A DNA stretch of 61,880 nt. Origin: Clostridia bacterium. Lineage in GTDB: Bacteria > Bacillota > Clostridia > Christensenellales > Borkfalkiaceae. A program made the position numbers and the translations under genes. Positions 29,934-49,828 of this stretch are shown here, in pieces. The notes under the pieces are model-generated. The model did no database searches, was not told the origin of the DNA, and saw only the letters and a list, made by a program, of their open reading frames with translations. Every line of letters begins with the position of its first letter. The stretch's first letter is position 1. The DNA lies in contig JAFTQO010000010.1 in NCBI GenBank assembly GCA_017462735.1, positions 1 through 61,880 on the forward strand. The letters are read 5' to 3'.

Positions 29934-30174
29934 AAAATCGGCGAGGAAAAAGGGAGTATCGTAACCCCTCCGTCCCAGAGAACTGTCGGTGCTGAGAAGA
30001 CAGTACGGAGCCTACGAGAAAAACACTTTGGAGCCTGCGAAAGAAAGCCTATGGGCAAGTAGAATCGCGCGTGACGCTGCGTAAACGCGAAAGAGTGGAT
30101 TGCAAAATCAATTTGGGTGGTACCGCGGAAGTTAGACCTTTCGTCCCATACGGGGCGATAGGTCTATTATTTTT
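29934..30174 (+). ncRNA. T-box leader riboswitch, aspS-gatCAB operon
   Basis: The conserved T-box GGGTGGTACCGCGG is at about 30115-30128, followed by the terminator stem (30134-30165) and a T-rich tract. Stem I is visible: the AGTA side of the loop-E motif at about 29955-29958, the AGAGA bulge, apical ACTGTC/GACAGT and CTCCGT/ACGGAG. On the 3' side GAA (30018-30020) is followed by A and then AAC (30022-30024), so the specifier codon is probably AAC (Asn). Uncharged tRNA would stabilise the antiterminator and switch the operon on. Confidence 0.9.
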
Positions 30175-45211: not shown

Positions 45212-45415
45212 CTATATGTCGCTAAGGCCAAGTAGATAATCGGCAGAAACGTCCAAAAATTGGCACAACAAATATAGCGTTTCTAAAGACGGCATGCTTT
45301 TGCCCGACTTGTAGTCGGATACGCATTGTTTAGAAACGTTGATGGCGGCGGCAATTTCCACCTGAGATTTTCCGCTTGCTTTTAAGACTTCGTTAAATCT
45401 TTCTTGAAATTTCAT
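45212..45415 (-). CDS. XRE-family repressor (cassette 3)
   Basis: A 67-residue minimal XRE protein: KSQVEIAAAINVSKQCVSDYKSG is the helix-turn-helix and the end reads DVSADYLLGLSDI. The ATG at 45415 has no ribosome site; TATAAT (minus strand, 45422-45427) ends exactly 6 bases before it, again predicting a leaderless mRNA. It is divergent from the zinc-ribbon membrane protein gene. Third member of the cassette family. Confidence 0.85.
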   Translation of the reverse strand: MKFQERFNEVLKASGKSQVEIAAAINVSKQCVSDYKSGKSMPSLETLYLLCQFLDVSADYLLGLSDI

Positions 45416-45435
45416 ACTAAAATTATACGCCAAAT

Positions 45436-45472
45436 AGTAAGTTATTACTTGACAGTAAGTTATAAACTTACT
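45436..45472. promoter_or_regulatory. XRE-3 operators O1 and O2
   Basis: O1 is a perfect 8-bp-arm palindrome AGTAAGTT-ATA-AACTTACT (45454-45472) that fills the cargo promoter spacer. O2 repeats the left arm AGTAAGTT (45436-45443) and continues into TTACT, inside the repressor's own promoter spacer. Confidence 0.8.
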
Positions 45473-45477
45473 ATAAT
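45449..45477 (+). promoter_or_regulatory. sigma-A promoter of the zinc-ribbon protein gene
   Basis: Perfect TTGACA (45449-45454), a 17-bp spacer and perfect TATAAT (45472-45477). Confidence 0.9.
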
Positions 45478-45509: not shown

Positions 45510-46982
45510 ATGGAAAATGCTACGACGGGCAGAAAATGCCCTAATTGTGGAGCAACGGTTGTAGAAGACTCGAAGTTTTGCAGTAACTGCGGCTATGCCT
45601 TTACGGCAATAAAACCGCCGCAAACGGTGCCTGGTGAGGAGAAGTCTTGCACTAAGTCGTTGCAAGTAGCCAAGACGGCAAAGACAGGTTTTTGGATGCG
45701 CGTCATCCCTGCGTTGCTTTTCATGTTGTTTACGGCGTTGACGTTTGTCTTTATGGCGTGTCCGTTTGCGCTTGACCCGATCTTTAAGGAAAGTGTAGGC
45801 AACGTGTACGAAATGGCGGGGGACGAACTGCTTGGGCTTCAAGACTGGGCGGTCACCTTTGTTGTTTTTGCGTGTTTGTTTTTGGTGGTAGGGGTCGTAT
45901 ATGTGCTGTCTGTGACGGTACTGCGCAGAGAGTGGCGTTTTAAAAGTGAACTTTTCTTATACGATATTTTGCTTTGGTTGACGATTGCCATTTATGTTTT
46001 GTACGCTGTATTGTCTATCGCTTGCTTGATTTTGCTTGGTGACGAGGGTTATGGTGGGTCTACTTTCTGCGTACTTATCCTCATTTTCTCTTTGTTGTTT
46101 GCAGGCGGTAACTTGGTTTGTTTTATCCTTTCTAAAAAGCCGTTTGCTGTACGCTTAGAAAACCCGAAAAAAGAAGTTGTGCAATCCGTTGAGCCGACAG
46201 AACCTGTACTTTTAAAAATCCAATTAGATGCCGAAGGCGATAGACAAATCAAAGAATATTTTAAAAAGAGTCGTATTTCTTCGAGATTGACCATTTTTAT
46301 TTTGCTCCCTCTTGTTGCGATTGCTTGGTTTATATTTGCATTTTCAGTGGGTGATATATCGGATGTGGAGAGTGTGAGATACCACGTTGAGGGGGATTCG
46401 GTAAACTCAGCGGCAGTGGTCGTAGTTGTTTCAGTCTTGTGTCTTATCGTAGGGATAATTTTTAGTTCAAAACGGGTAGGTAAGAAGTACTCGGAAAATA
46501 CATCAAATCCTTTGTATCGTGCGGTATGTAAAAGTGGCAAAAAAACGCAAGTATTTGCCATTATTTTTGCGGTGGGGGTTCTTTCGATTGTTTGTGTTAT
46601 AGGCGGTTTGTATCTTACGACTTATGGGCGAATCAAAGATATTCAAGCACGCGGTGGATATAGAAACGGTTATTATTATCGCAATGTTTGGGAGTTGTCT
46701 CAATATAATAAGGTGGCGTTGCCGCGGGTGATTGTGTTGTTGGCGGTTTTTGTAGTGACTGTAATTTTTGTCGTTGTTATATTTGCGTTGAGAAAGTCGC
46801 GTAAAAAGGATTTACGTCATCCTTCGCTTGCAATGCATATGGGGTTGTTCACGGTGGAAAATATGGCGGAGATGAAGACCTATCCCAAGAGAGTGAGAAG
46901 GTATCGCCATTCGGTCAAGATGAGAGGTTTTTATCTTTACGATAAAGAAAAGTATGAAAAGTATGCGGCAGAAAACGCGTAA
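45510..46982 (+). CDS. Zinc-ribbon multi-span membrane protein (cassette-3 cargo)
   Basis: 490 residues. The N-terminal zinc ribbon has CPNCG (10-14) and CSNCG (24-28 region) cysteine pairs. About seven hydrophobic segments follow: two pairs between 55 and 185, one near 190-205, and two pairs between 265 and 430. The tail is basic. I recognise no family beyond the ribbon. AGGAGG precedes the ATG and the promoter carries the XRE-3 operator. A cytoplasmic ribbon on a membrane protein suggests sensing or assembly, but no function can be assigned. Confidence 0.8.
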   Translation: MENATTGRKCPNCGATVVEDSKFCSNCGYAFTAIKPPQTVPGEEKSCTKSLQVAKTAKTGFWMRVIPALLFMLFTALTFVFMACPFALDPIFKESVGNVYEMAGDELLGLQDWAVTFVVFACLFLVVGVVYVLSVTVLRREWRFKSELFLYDILLWLTIAIYVLYAVLSIACLILLGDEGYGGSTFCVLILIFSLLFAGGNLVCFILSKKPFAVRLENPKKEVVQSVEPTEPVLLKIQLDAEGDRQIKEYFKKSRISSRLTIFILLPLVAIAWFIFAFSVGDISDVESVRYHVEGDSVNSAAVVVVVSVLCLIVGIIFSSKRVGKKYSENTSNPLYRAVCKSGKKTQVFAIIFAVGVLSIVCVIGGLYLTTYGRIKDIQARGGYRNGYYYRNVWELSQYNKVALPRVIVLLAVFVVTVIFVVVIFALRKSRKKDLRHPSLAMHMGLFTVENMAEMKTYPKRVRRYRHSVKMRGFYLYDKEKYEKYAAENA

Positions 46983-46989
46983 AAGGGTA

Positions 46990-47018
46990 TTGACAGCCTA
47001 AATCAGGTATGGTATAAT
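46990..47018 (+). promoter_or_regulatory. sigma-A promoter of a short RNA
   Basis: Perfect TTGACA (46990-46995), a 17-bp spacer and perfect TATAAT (47013-47018). It is followed about 75 bases later by an intrinsic terminator, with no ORF between. Confidence 0.9.
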
Positions 47019-47024
47019 ACGGAT

Positions 47025-47092
47025 ACGAAATGATCCCCGGAAGGTTCTTTCGGGGACGGAGGGGAACTCATTTATGGGTTCCCTATTTTTTT
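47025..47092 (+). ncRNA. Short RNA upstream of the AbiF-like gene, candidate RNA antitoxin
   Basis: About 68 nt between a consensus promoter and a T-run. Hairpin 1 is TCCCCG/CGGGGA (47034-47039 with 47051-47056) with a loop that can form GAA/TTC. Hairpin 2 is GGGAAC/GTTCCC (47062-47067 with 47078-47083) followed by TATTTTTTT, a terminator. A purine-rich linker (ACGGAGG) joins them. Structured RNAs upstream of abiF genes are known (the abiF RNA motif), so an antitoxin role is a good hypothesis. I cannot match it to the published motif by eye. Confidence 0.7.
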
Positions 47093-47145
47093 GGCGTAAA
47101 GAGGAAGGCGCGAGATTCTTTATTTCACATTTCCTTTTCTCTATG

Positions 47146-47281
47146 TCTCCCCTGTTAGGGGAGATGTCGCGAAAGCGACAGAGAGGTTAAAATAAGGCAA
47201 GAGATAAAAGTGAATGGTGAAAAAGTAAAAACCTCTCCGTCAAAATTTGCAAATTTTGCCACCTCTCCTTTGCAGGCGAGG
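47146..47281. repeat. Inverted pair of a hairpin repeat unit
   Basis: The unit at 47146-47188 (CTCCCCTGTTAGGGGAG, then GTCGC-GAAA-GCGAC, then AGAGAGGTT) and the reverse complement of 47229-47281 (CTCGCCTGCAAAGGAGAGG, an AAAATTT-type hairpin, then ACGGAGAGGTT) share their start, middle dyad and end. The two copies face each other around a 40-base spacer. This looks like a known type of small non-coding dispersed element of gut Firmicutes. Confidence 0.65.
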
Positions 47282-47331
47282 CATAAGCGAGTGGGTGGTA
47301 GAGCGTCACAACGGTGACTAATGAGGTGCGT

Positions 47332-48324
47332 ATGGCAAGAAAAAGACAACAACCGCCCTTGCCGCAAACGGTAGGAAAAAAAGTCTATTTTACCTTTGAC
47401 GAGCAAATCGCAAAATTAAAAAGCGACGGCTTGATGATCGCAGACGAAAAGCGGGCGAAAGCACGGCTGAAATGGGAGGGCTATTTCAATTTCGCCGTTG
47501 GCTATAACCGCCTGTTTAAGGACGGTAAAAAGTACGTGGCAGGTACGACTTTCGAGCATATCGAGGCTTTGTACGACTACGACAGGCGTATACGGGACGT
47601 GGTGTACGAGTGCACGCAAATTATCGAGTGCAATTTAAAGGCGCTCGTCTCGGACGTCTTTTCCAAGCGCTACGGCGTCAACGAACGCTCGTATCTGGCG
47701 GAAGAAAATTTCACGGACGAGCCGTCCATGTCGCCCAAGGTGCGTTGGATTGTCGGTACTTGCCGCTCCACTTTGGAAGACGGTATCCGTATGGGCTCGT
47801 CTTATTATCACGACTATATCGCCTATTATGATAAGACGTACGGGCACGTGCCTCTGTGGGCACTTATCCGTGCGCTCAGTTTCGGCAATACCTCTAAGTT
47901 TTTGCGGCTGATGAAACTTGCCGATAGGAAGGAGATAGCCAAGGAGTACGGGATAACCCCCGACGTTTTGTGCAATTTGACGGAGATTGCGGTGTCTTTC
48001 CGCAACGTTGCCGCGCACGGAGAGCGGGTCTATTGCGCCGCTTTGCCGAAAGTGCGCCTTTCGGACGATTTATCTATTCTTTCCCGCTTGCAAGTCCCCC
48101 GTTTTGCCGACGGCAGAAGAAAGTACGCGAAGTGCGACTTTATGGCGTTTTTAATCGTGGCAAAGTACCTTTTACGCCCTACGGAGTTTGCCCGTTATTT
48201 GCAAATCGTCAAAGAAGAAACGCAAAAATTGGAGGAAAACATCCCCGCGTGGGCAATGAAAAGGGTATACGAAAAGACAGGGCTTTCGGGCAGTTGGAAA
48301 AAACTCGATTGTATGCAAAAATAG
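47332..48324 (+). CDS. Abi_2/AbiF-family HEPN protein
   Basis: About 330 residues. The N-terminal half shows the Abi_2 pattern: FDEQIAKLKSDGLMI, an R-rich GYFNFAVGYNRLF segment, and YDYDRRIRDVVYECTQIIE. The C-terminal half has the HEPN-type motif RNVAAH (R, four residues, H) in LCNLTEIAVSFRNVAAHGERVY. Abi_2 proteins (AbiD/AbiF) cause abortive infection, and HEPN motifs usually mean RNA cleavage. GAGGTG precedes the ATG at 47332. A short terminated RNA lies 240 bases upstream, separated by an inverted repeat pair. No protein antitoxin is adjacent. Confidence 0.85.
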   Translation: MARKRQQPPLPQTVGKKVYFTFDEQIAKLKSDGLMIADEKRAKARLKWEGYFNFAVGYNRLFKDGKKYVAGTTFEHIEALYDYDRRIRDVVYECTQIIECNLKALVSDVFSKRYGVNERSYLAEENFTDEPSMSPKVRWIVGTCRSTLEDGIRMGSSYYHDYIAYYDKTYGHVPLWALIRALSFGNTSKFLRLMKLADRKEIAKEYGITPDVLCNLTEIAVSFRNVAAHGERVYCAALPKVRLSDDLSILSRLQVPRFADGRRKYAKCDFMAFLIVAKYLLRPTEFARYLQIVKEETQKLEENIPAWAMKRVYEKTGLSGSWKKLDCMQK

Positions 48325-48370
48325 GGCAAGTGGACAAAACTAACGCCTCAAAAAGTAAAAATTTTCAAAT

Positions 48371-48387
48371 TTGTGCAACTTGCACAA
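48371..48387. promoter_or_regulatory. 17-bp palindrome upstream of msmX
   Basis: A perfect palindrome TTGTGCAA-C-TTGCACAA, 31 bases upstream of the -35 box. Its length and symmetry are those of a repressor or activator operator; a sugar-responsive regulator would fit the downstream gene. Confidence 0.55.
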
Positions 48388-48418
48388 AGAAAAGTTGGAA
48401 ATTTATGCGTATTTTGGG

Positions 48419-48447
48419 TTGTAATTTTTAAAAAATCGTGTTACAAT
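48419..48447 (+). promoter_or_regulatory. sigma-A promoter of msmX
   Basis: TTGTAA (48419-48424), a 17-bp spacer and TACAAT (48442-48447). Confidence 0.75.
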
Positions 48448-48490
48448 AGTAACGTACAAAAAAATCAAACTTGATTTGGAGGAAAAAATT

Positions 48491-49828
48491 ATGTCAGGAC
48501 TTTTGCTGAAAGGCATCAACAAAGTGTACCCTTCGGGCGTACAAGCAGTGTTCAATTTCTGTCTCGATATTAGAGATAAGGAATTCATCGTATTGGTAGG
48601 TCCTTCCGGTTGCGGTAAATCTACCACCCTTCGTATGGTTGCAGGCTTGGAGGAAATCTCTTCGGGCGAACTGTACATCGACGGCAGACTCGTTAACGAC
48701 GTCGTACCTAAAGACAGAGACATCGCGATGGTTTTCCAGAACTACGCATTGTATCCTCACATGTCCGTATACGACAACATGGCGTTCGGTTTGAAACTCC
48801 GCAAAGTACCTAAGGAAATCATCGACCAAAAGGTTAAAGCGGCTGCTCAAATCCTCGGTATCACCGACTACTTGTCCAGAAAACCCAAGGCATTGTCCGG
48901 TGGTCAAAGACAACGTGTTGCGCTCGGTCGTACCATCGTTCGTGAACCCAAAGTATTCTTGCTCGACGAACCTTTGTCCAACTTGGACGCAAAACTCCGT
49001 GCTTCGATGAGAACGGAAATCTCCAAATTGCATTCTCGTCTTGCTACGACGTTCATCTACGTTACCCACGACCAAATCGAAGCAATGACGATGGGTACGC
49101 GTATCGTCGTTATGAAAGACGGCTTTATGCAACAAGTGGATACCCCTCAAAACTTGTACGACTATCCTATCAACTTGTTCGTTGCAAGTTTCATCGGTAC
49201 CCCTCAAATGAACTTCTTCAAAGACGCTCGCCTCGTTTCCAAGACGGTTGGCAAGACGAAGAAGATTTGCGTAAACTTCACCGCTGGCAACCAAATCATC
49301 CTTCCCAAAGGCGTTGTTGCCCGTATCAAGAACTTGGAAGAATATCTTGACACCGACAAACCCGTAACCCTCGGCGTTCGTCCCGAAGATATCCACCAAG
49401 ACCAAATGTTCATTGCTAACTCTCCCGACACCATCGTTAAGGCTCGTATCGACGTTATCGAAAAGTTGGGTGCAGAAACGCAAATCTACTGCGAACTTGA
49501 CTACAACAAGGACGGCGAAACCATCGTAGACAGCACCACGCAAATGATCGCGAAGATCTCTAGCCGTGCAGTCGTTGCTTTGGACGAAGTTATCGAACTT
49601 GCTTTCGACGCTCAACACATCCATATGTTCGACGGCGTTACGGAAGCGACGATGCTTGAAAGAGACGAAGGCTACGAAGTTATCGAAGAAAACGCAGAAG
49701 GCGCGGCGTTCGTACCTCCTACACCTCAAGAAATGCGCGCTCGTATCGACGCGGCTCGTACCGTAACGAAAGAAATGAAAGCGCAAATGAAGAAGGACGC
49801 GAAAATCGCAAAAATGTCCAAAAAATAA
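48491..49828 (+). CDS. msmX: Sugar ABC transporter ATPase (UgpC/MsmX/MalK type)
   Basis: 445 residues. The ATPase domain has GPSGCGKST (Walker A), LSGGQRQRVALGR (signature) and LLDEPLSNLDAKLR (Walker B). The OB-like MalK C-terminal domain follows (GVRPEDIH). Compared with usual 365-residue relatives, it has extra length within and after the C-terminal domain, ending in a Lys-rich tail. No permease or binding protein is adjacent, so it is probably a shared ATPase for several sugar importers, like MsmX. Its codon choice is strongly biased, as in the ribosomal genes, suggesting high expression. Confidence 0.92.
   Translation: MSGLLLKGINKVYPSGVQAVFNFCLDIRDKEFIVLVGPSGCGKSTTLRMVAGLEEISSGELYIDGRLVNDVVPKDRDIAMVFQNYALYPHMSVYDNMAFGLKLRKVPKEIIDQKVKAAAQILGITDYLSRKPKALSGGQRQRVALGRTIVREPKVFLLDEPLSNLDAKLRASMRTEISKLHSRLATTFIYVTHDQIEAMTMGTRIVVMKDGFMQQVDTPQNLYDYPINLFVASFIGTPQMNFFKDARLVSKTVGKTKKICVNFTAGNQIILPKGVVARIKNLEEYLDTDKPVTLGVRPEDIHQDQMFIANSPDTIVKARIDVIEKLGAETQIYCELDYNKDGETIVDSTTQMIAKISSRAVVALDEVIELAFDAQHIHMFDGVTEATMLERDEGYEVIEENAEGAAFVPPTPQEMRARIDAARTVTKEMKAQMKKDAKIAKMSKK

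Follow-up and report, generated by a model that had tools for sequence, protein, structure and literature searches.

A small terminated RNA ahead of an AbiD/F HEPN protein gene in a gut Clostridia bacterium, a probable antitoxin of a separate RNA class

The window analysed here, a stretch of 61,880 nucleotides, is one contig of an incomplete genome (0.92 Mb, 68.75% complete). It carries a gene for an AbiD/F HEPN protein behind a sigma-A promoter and a small RNA that ends in a terminator. We consider it likely that RNA and gene form an RNA-neutralised, type-III-like toxin module, in which termination in cis would be combined with binding in trans and whose RNA belongs to a new class; the small RNA probably acts as the antidote of the toxin. 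Counted in favour of this module are the Abi_2 domain and PbAbiF fold of the protein, the covariation of the RNA, its linkage to the gene, a blind model search, the match between RNA type and protein clade, and the residues lost together with the RNA. The carrier of the pair is a gut bacterium, and two relatives are 'Clostridia bacterium' MAGs whose sources are sheep colon and roe-deer caecum.

The window locus and its Abi protein

A preliminary description of this DNA had claimed a perfect sigma-A promoter, a two-hairpin RNA of about 68 nt with a terminator and, 240 bases further on, an Abi_2/AbiF gene with an RNVAAH motif, and each of these was borne out. The promoter (TTGACA-17-TATAAT, 46990-47018), which like all features of the pair is on the forward strand, agrees with the consensus at 12/12 positions; it drives the RNA and would serve the gene through readthrough. 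The RNA, our proposed antitoxin, spans 47025-47092, its start being placed from the -10 box, and both the fold and the T-rich tail of an intrinsic terminator were confirmed. In hairpin P1 (47034-47056) positions 47034-47039 pair with 47051-47056 below a variable upper part. A linker, CGGA (47057-47060), delimited in alignments, leads to the terminator hairpin P2 and its U-run (47061-47092); the stem of P2 occupies 47061-47084 and carries a conserved CAUUUAUG (47069-47076) around the loop. A dispersed hairpin repeat (about 47134-47287) then separates the RNA from abi. GAGGTG at 47323-47328 is, from the sequence, a probable ribosome binding site for the abi gene (47332-48324), which starts with the ATG at 47332 and encodes the proposed toxin of 330 residues. 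Between terminator and abi, a consensus scan of the window found no second promoter reaching 9/12.

The window abi is flanked by a gene for a zinc-ribbon protein on one side and by an ABC ATPase gene on the other, and no protein antitoxin adjoins it, as had been claimed. Proteins of the HTH_3 type can be antitoxins. A gene for a 73-residue HTH_3 protein (E 6.6e-14) lies on the minus strand at 45212-45433, 1.9 kb from abi, between yigZ and the zinc-ribbon gene. It is missing from the corresponding place in L002, the closest relative of the window locus, where the RNA directly succeeds yigZ and the zinc-ribbon gene is also missing between yigZ and abi. The window further contains a second perfect sigma-A promoter (12/12, 45449-45477), before the zinc-ribbon gene (45510-46982), and a T-box leader (RF00230, 107.7 bits) at 29935-30151.

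Judged by domain score, motif and predicted fold, the window Abi belongs to the Abi_2/AbiD-F HEPN family. Pfam Abi_2 matches it with an E-value of 2.9e-36 (125.9 bits, cut-off 25.6), PADLOC names it AbiD (E 4.5e-49), and its gene is the only Abi_2 gene detected in the window's genome. The HEPN R-x4-H motif, R224-N-V-A-A-H229 (48001-48018), lies at the end of the Abi_2 domain; all 13 aligned proteins, that of the window included, share its R, N, A228 and H. An apparent in-frame TAA in the abi gene of L009 turned out to be the normal end of that gene. An AlphaFold2 model, built on an alignment of 12 proteins (window and related loci), reached a pLDDT of 85.2 and a pTM of 0.83. PDB entry 8vz6, 'PbAbiF dimer bound to ncRNA', is the only structure that matches its fold at E<=0.001 (E 7.7e-11, TM 0.68/0.75) and also the sole PDB sequence match of the protein at E<=1 (E 1.2e-11). 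Both proteins share fold and HEPN motif, and PbAbiF has the closest solved fold; identity over the fold alignment is 22%. A clade-specific segment follows the HEPN motif (residues 235-268, 48034-48135, including R242 and Y265) and is, along with N215 (47974-47976), the candidate RNA-binding part. Residues 241-270 are the least certain of the model outside the N-terminus, with block means of 74, 63 and 65. By analogy with PbAbiF and with the AbiF of Clostridioides difficile, in both of which the motif's R and H are described as required (PMC12373285), the window Abi would be a dimer with ribonuclease activity.

Structure and class of the RNA

The RNA folds with an energy of -30.1 kcal/mol (z -3.52), and 1/200 shuffles was equally good. 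Reading of upstream regions revealed an element of the same type before the same-genus orthologues L002, L005, L006, L007, L008, L009, L010 and L036 and a more diverged one before L013, L040 and L041; altogether, window-type RNAs precede 15 abi homologues besides that of the window. A corresponding promoter of at least 10/12 is present in 13/13 abi-linked RNA loci tested, 9-14 bases before the element. We aligned nine genus sequences with MAFFT, the structure being supplied, and fitted 15 sequences (13 abi-linked and 2 unlinked) to the structure. In the former, 98.6% of cells are paired and 7/16 pairs changed on both sides; in the latter, 96.7% of cells are paired and 12/16 pairs changed on both sides, including all 6 pairs of P1, which lies outside the terminator. 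The covariation score of the 15 sequences, 0.711, exceeds that of shuffled alignments (0.393) and of slid structures (0.233 or less). Further pair types are not above the shuffles (156, 290 and 171 of 500 equally high in three alignments).

While the stems vary, the linker and the CAUUNAUG loop region stay conserved. The linker reads CGG in the genus and in L157 and CUG in L013, L040, L041 and L158; the terminator loop is CAUUNAUG or, as in L157, UAUUUAUG in 14/15 sequences, the exception being L002, which has lost it. Because the RNA recurs in relatives with covariation, we place it beyond chance. At about 2620-2680 of L040 (minus strand), a second hairpin-plus-terminator resembling the window RNA was noticed by eye, some 125-180 bases ahead of the main element; the search model R1 described below did not find it.

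The window RNA differs from the known abiF RNA of Rfam: RF03085 gave no match in the window at gathering (37 bits) or at E<=5. The RNA reached the gathering score of no Rfam family. RF03085 was likewise not matched in ten further window-type loci, L040 and L041 included (E<=2 or E<=1), in L083 at E<=0.5, or at gathering in L036, L157, L158, L162, L163 and L164. Matches at E<=5 in 46900-47400 totalled three and were taken as chance: two to whalefall-1, inside the repeat and far below threshold, and one to SSRC38 over the terminator (16 bits against 80, E 2.4). RF03085 does occur before more distant homologues, at or above gathering in L014 (a 29%-identical protein; 44.5 bits), L044, L134, L143 and L141; L132 and L151 look abiF-like by eye and score below gathering. 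It is the only Rfam family found ahead of Abi_2 genes in these searches. RF03085 and the window RNA take the same place before Abi_2 genes, but the former is a single 37-nt hairpin with a bulge, unlike the latter. On sequence comparison, the window RNA is a separate class without an Rfam entry, with no detectable likeness to RF03085 and specific to one AbiD/F clade. Gut-1 matches near L040 (1222-1293, 54.5 bits, above threshold) and L041 (3690-3762, 31 bits, below threshold) appear to be short-hairpin repeat arrays at a distance from the RNA, on the downstream side of abi in L040 and on the upstream side in L041, and were judged unrelated.

In a midpoint-rooted tree of 34 proteins, from which L009 was left out, one set (support 100/99) holds 11 carriers of the window-type RNA, two RNA-less orthologues and L037, and another (91/96) holds two RF03085 carriers and six proteins whose RNA is abiF-like by eye, below gathering. 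As far as these sequences go, the type of RNA agrees with the clade of the protein. A third type of RNA, which starts with AGUGAUCGUGUU and consists of a hairpin and a terminator, precedes the abi genes of L126-L131 (e.g. L129:1405-1472). In an alignment of five of the six sequences (L127 left out), 9/19 predicted pairs changed on both sides; this type has no Rfam match at gathering score, and in L128 a sub-threshold Atu_C8 match (29.4 bits against 50, E 0.052) overlaps it. Further RNA classes ahead of Abi homologues are likely. A promoter-like site and a hairpin-rich stretch other than the window type were seen before abi in L046, L061, L057, L058, L043, L139 and L152; R1 was run on all of these except L152. 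Searches of open-access titles and abstracts brought up none that deals with the window RNA class.

Association of RNA and gene across genomes

Model R1 was built from nine sequences and scanned over 57 genomes of the genus, with at most 96 candidates scored per genome. It gave strong matches (63-83 bits) in 10 genomes, the next best match scoring 26.7 bits. An abi orthologue is present in 12/57 genomes, not counting an 18.7-bit partial Abi match in G215. Strong RNA matches were thus found in 10/12 genomes with abi versus 0/45 without it (Fisher p 1.5e-9, genomes being treated as independent of kinship). In 9/10 RNA genomes the RNA is directly upstream of abi on the same contig. In G201 it stops 38 bases short of the end of contig C32, which also holds yigZ, and the gene starts 36 bases from the end of C151; as both are near contig ends, a contig break separates them.

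Model R2, built from 13 sequences, gives the window RNA 77.5 bits. Over 398 genomes of the family it matched 17 at E<=1e-4, 14 of them scoring no less than 33 bits. Eleven had contributed to R2, and the three new ones (L162-L164, 33.5-37.3 bits) each have, directly downstream of the RNA, an abi homologue 38.6-40.3% identical to that of the window. The remaining three genomes (29.4-31 bits), like a second weak match in G211, have no abi nearby. In 396 genomes of the order, seven had matches and three of these were abi-linked (those of the window, L041 and L040); the weak ones in G240 and G392 (28.2 and 25.2 bits) are probably chance hits. The order and family searches scored at most 13 candidates per genome under strict filters. 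Weak model matches (up to 26.7 bits in the genus, 28.2 in the order and 31 in the family) were taken as chance, and 0/14 distinct weak-match stretches searched contained an abi gene. The linkage holds in 16 loci from six genus codes. Conservation, covariation, linkage and the blind model search all support the claimed pairing, in which an AbiF-type HEPN protein goes with a terminated RNA encoded ahead of it. Viral contigs contained no match to an exact 27-base pattern of the RNA, and R1 scored no higher than 15.1 bits on 13 of 14 viral loci, those it was run on. The identity of viral Abi homologues does not exceed 27% in 14 viral-contig loci and 26.5% among the matches listed (20 of 60 phage records).

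The site of the pair is chromosomal. In 12/12 abi genomes of the genus, yigZ lies upstream of abi within about 2.3 kb. A MalK-like ABC ATPase gene follows abi in six loci (window, L002, L007, L011, L012 and L036); no ABC ATPase match was found within 1.5 kb downstream in L005, L006, L008, L009 and L010, L037 being outside this comparison. In six abi-less genomes that were read, yigZ and the ABC ATPase gene are separated by a gene that by eye resembles an aldo/keto reductase. The parts read showed no evident defence island or prophage at the abi site. Inverted repeats had been described, as an unusual trait, between RNA and gene and are indeed present at about 47134-47287; a part for them in the system was rejected. 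They have 18 other matches in the window's own genome and are missing from the 80%-identical L002, in which about 30 nt separate the terminator from the start codon, and we therefore judge them incidental. In the orthologous upstream regions read, the terminator is close to the gene.

Two orthologues of the genus, L011 and L012 (L003 is the same locus as L012), lack the RNA: abi directly follows yigZ with no room for it, and R2 found none elsewhere in the two genomes (81% and 84% complete; 150 first-look candidates scored). Both proteins retain the HEPN motif. We compared them with the RNA-linked proteins at 85 columns conserved in at least 11/12 of the latter. Altered columns number 11 in L011 and 8 in L012, and the 4 altered in both (215, 239, 242 and 265) have a hypergeometric p of 0.0085, computed ignoring shared ancestry. 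P239 was dropped, since L002 has Ser there and L163 and L164 do not retain it. Among RNA-linked proteins, four of which were added to the original 12, N215 and R242 are unchanged in 16/16, and position 265 is Tyr or Phe in 16/16; all three are altered in both RNA-less orthologues, and N215, R242 and Y265 are candidate antitoxin contacts. A single clade for the L011 and L012 proteins has a p of 0.285, so that one or two losses of the RNA are possible.

The converse also occurs. G299 (L157:1501-1557, 38.8 bits) and G570 (L158:1501-1556, 32.5 bits) contain a window-type RNA with no abi nearby, and an Abi_2 gene was found in neither genome (75% and 94% complete, respectively). The RNA promoter scores 11/12 in G570 and 8/12 in G299. 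These RNAs are possibly solitary RNA antitoxins or remnants. By eye, a hydrolase-like ORF comes after the RNA of L158. The pairing is not obligate, since the RNA is missing before two orthologues and, in two genomes, is present with no toxin gene detected.

The proposed module and its alternatives

The best-described parallel comes from C. difficile prophage phi027. PMC12373285 reports that AbiFCd is toxic and that RCd22, a terminated RNA encoded upstream of it, counteracts it both in cis and in trans, by direct binding, with termination itself adding to the repression; PbAbiF in turn pairs with an RNA called AbiFr (PMC12737573; PMC12373285). The order of sigma-A promoter, structured RNA, terminator and gene for an Abi_2/AbiD-F HEPN protein is common to the C. 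difficile system and the window; a structured RNA with a terminator lies between promoter and abi here as in AbiF-type systems with RNA antitoxins. The RNAs differ: RCd22, with major products of 88-115 nt, a full form of 132 nt and two RF03085 motifs, is described as prophage-borne (PMC12373285), whereas the window RNA has about 68 nt, no RF03085, P1 and a terminator hairpin with the CAUUNAUG loop, and is chromosomal, downstream of yigZ. ToxIN and its kin, the type III systems, also have an RNA antitoxin upstream of a ribonuclease toxin with a terminator in between (in part as described in PMC12373285). The window differs from them in a toxin that is HEPN and not ToxN-type and in having one RNA unit, not a tandem-repeat array. 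The direct repeat that classically marks type III systems was not found inside the RNA when 46950-48500 was searched, and the protein fold is that of AbiF.

From AbiFCd/RCd22 and PbAbiF-AbiFr as described in print we infer toxicity and neutralisation for the window pair. The single sigma-A promoter would yield a short RNA that mostly ends at its own terminator, and occasional readthrough would supply the abi mRNA, leaving the short RNA in excess. Abi, by prediction and comparison an AbiD/F HEPN ribonuclease, would be toxic by cutting RNA. The short RNA would bind it via P1, linker and the conserved loop of the terminator, probably contacting the segment after the HEPN motif, and so block the active site. 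A shortfall of RNA, as in phage infection, would free the toxin to cut RNA, and growth would stop.

The RNA might instead be a leader acting in cis alone, whose terminator hairpin, as attenuator or ligand switch, limits abi transcription with no antitoxin role in trans. It does end in a terminator between promoter and gene, and the part that termination plays in C. difficile points the same way (PMC12373285). We nonetheless think this unlikely. The conservation of P1, of the linker and of the terminator loop exceeds the requirements of a terminator; gene-less RNAs exist, that of L158 with its 11/12 promoter; and RCd22 is reported in the same source to work in trans as well. The one alternative pairing tested as an antiterminator, the 5' strand of P1 with the 5' arm of the terminator, was possible in 81.3% against 81.6% in shuffles, with no excess covariation, and was set aside. 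Far less probable still is a translational leader, in which translation from the AUG of the terminator loop would yield either the product of a short leader ORF or an N-terminally extended Abi. A purine-rich arm precedes this AUG, which is in frame with abi in L007, L008 and L009, and its frame ends at the abi start in L010 and L013; yet the peptide stops after 6-38 residues in the seven remaining AUG-bearing loci linked to abi, L002 lacks the AUG, and terminator anatomy accounts for the purine arm and the UUU codons. The frame not being conserved, we rejected this ORF.

A Cas13-like role, with the RNA directing the HEPN protein to RNA targets instead of silencing it, is hardly credible. AbiF is held to be a toxin-antitoxin ancestor of Cas13 (PMC12373285; PMC12737573), but the RNA contains no variable single-stranded stretch that is as long as a guide and resembles a spacer; most of it is paired, and what varies is the top of P1. 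Equally improbable is an RNA of other function that merely has abi downstream. Two genomes do have the RNA without a detected abi, and yet the linkage counts, 10/12 against 0/45 in the genus and 16 linked loci overall, strongly disfavour chance neighbours. We thus retain the RNA-neutralised toxin module as the likely reading. Counted against it are the two RNA-less orthologues among the 12 of the genus, the G299 and G570 RNAs, a chromosomal site by yigZ without evident defence island or prophage, and the lost loop of L002.

An AbiF-type toxin with an RNA antitoxin is already known from C. difficile; what is new is the RNA class, an extra RNA family missed by Rfam-based annotation. We tentatively raise the wider possibility that AbiD/F toxins use several unlike, clade-specific RNA antitoxins (the window RNA, that of L126-L131 and RF03085), swapped whole while the toxin fold stayed. 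RNAs might then outlive or escape their toxin, as in G570 and G299, and toxins of RNA-losing lineages would have lost the RNA-reading N215, R242 and Y265 while keeping the catalytic motif. If this is true, the passage from antitoxin RNA to Cas13 crRNA would be one among many swaps of RNA partner. A second well-defined RNA class, together with its natural exceptions, lets the gain and change of RNA partners by HEPN toxins be directly tested.
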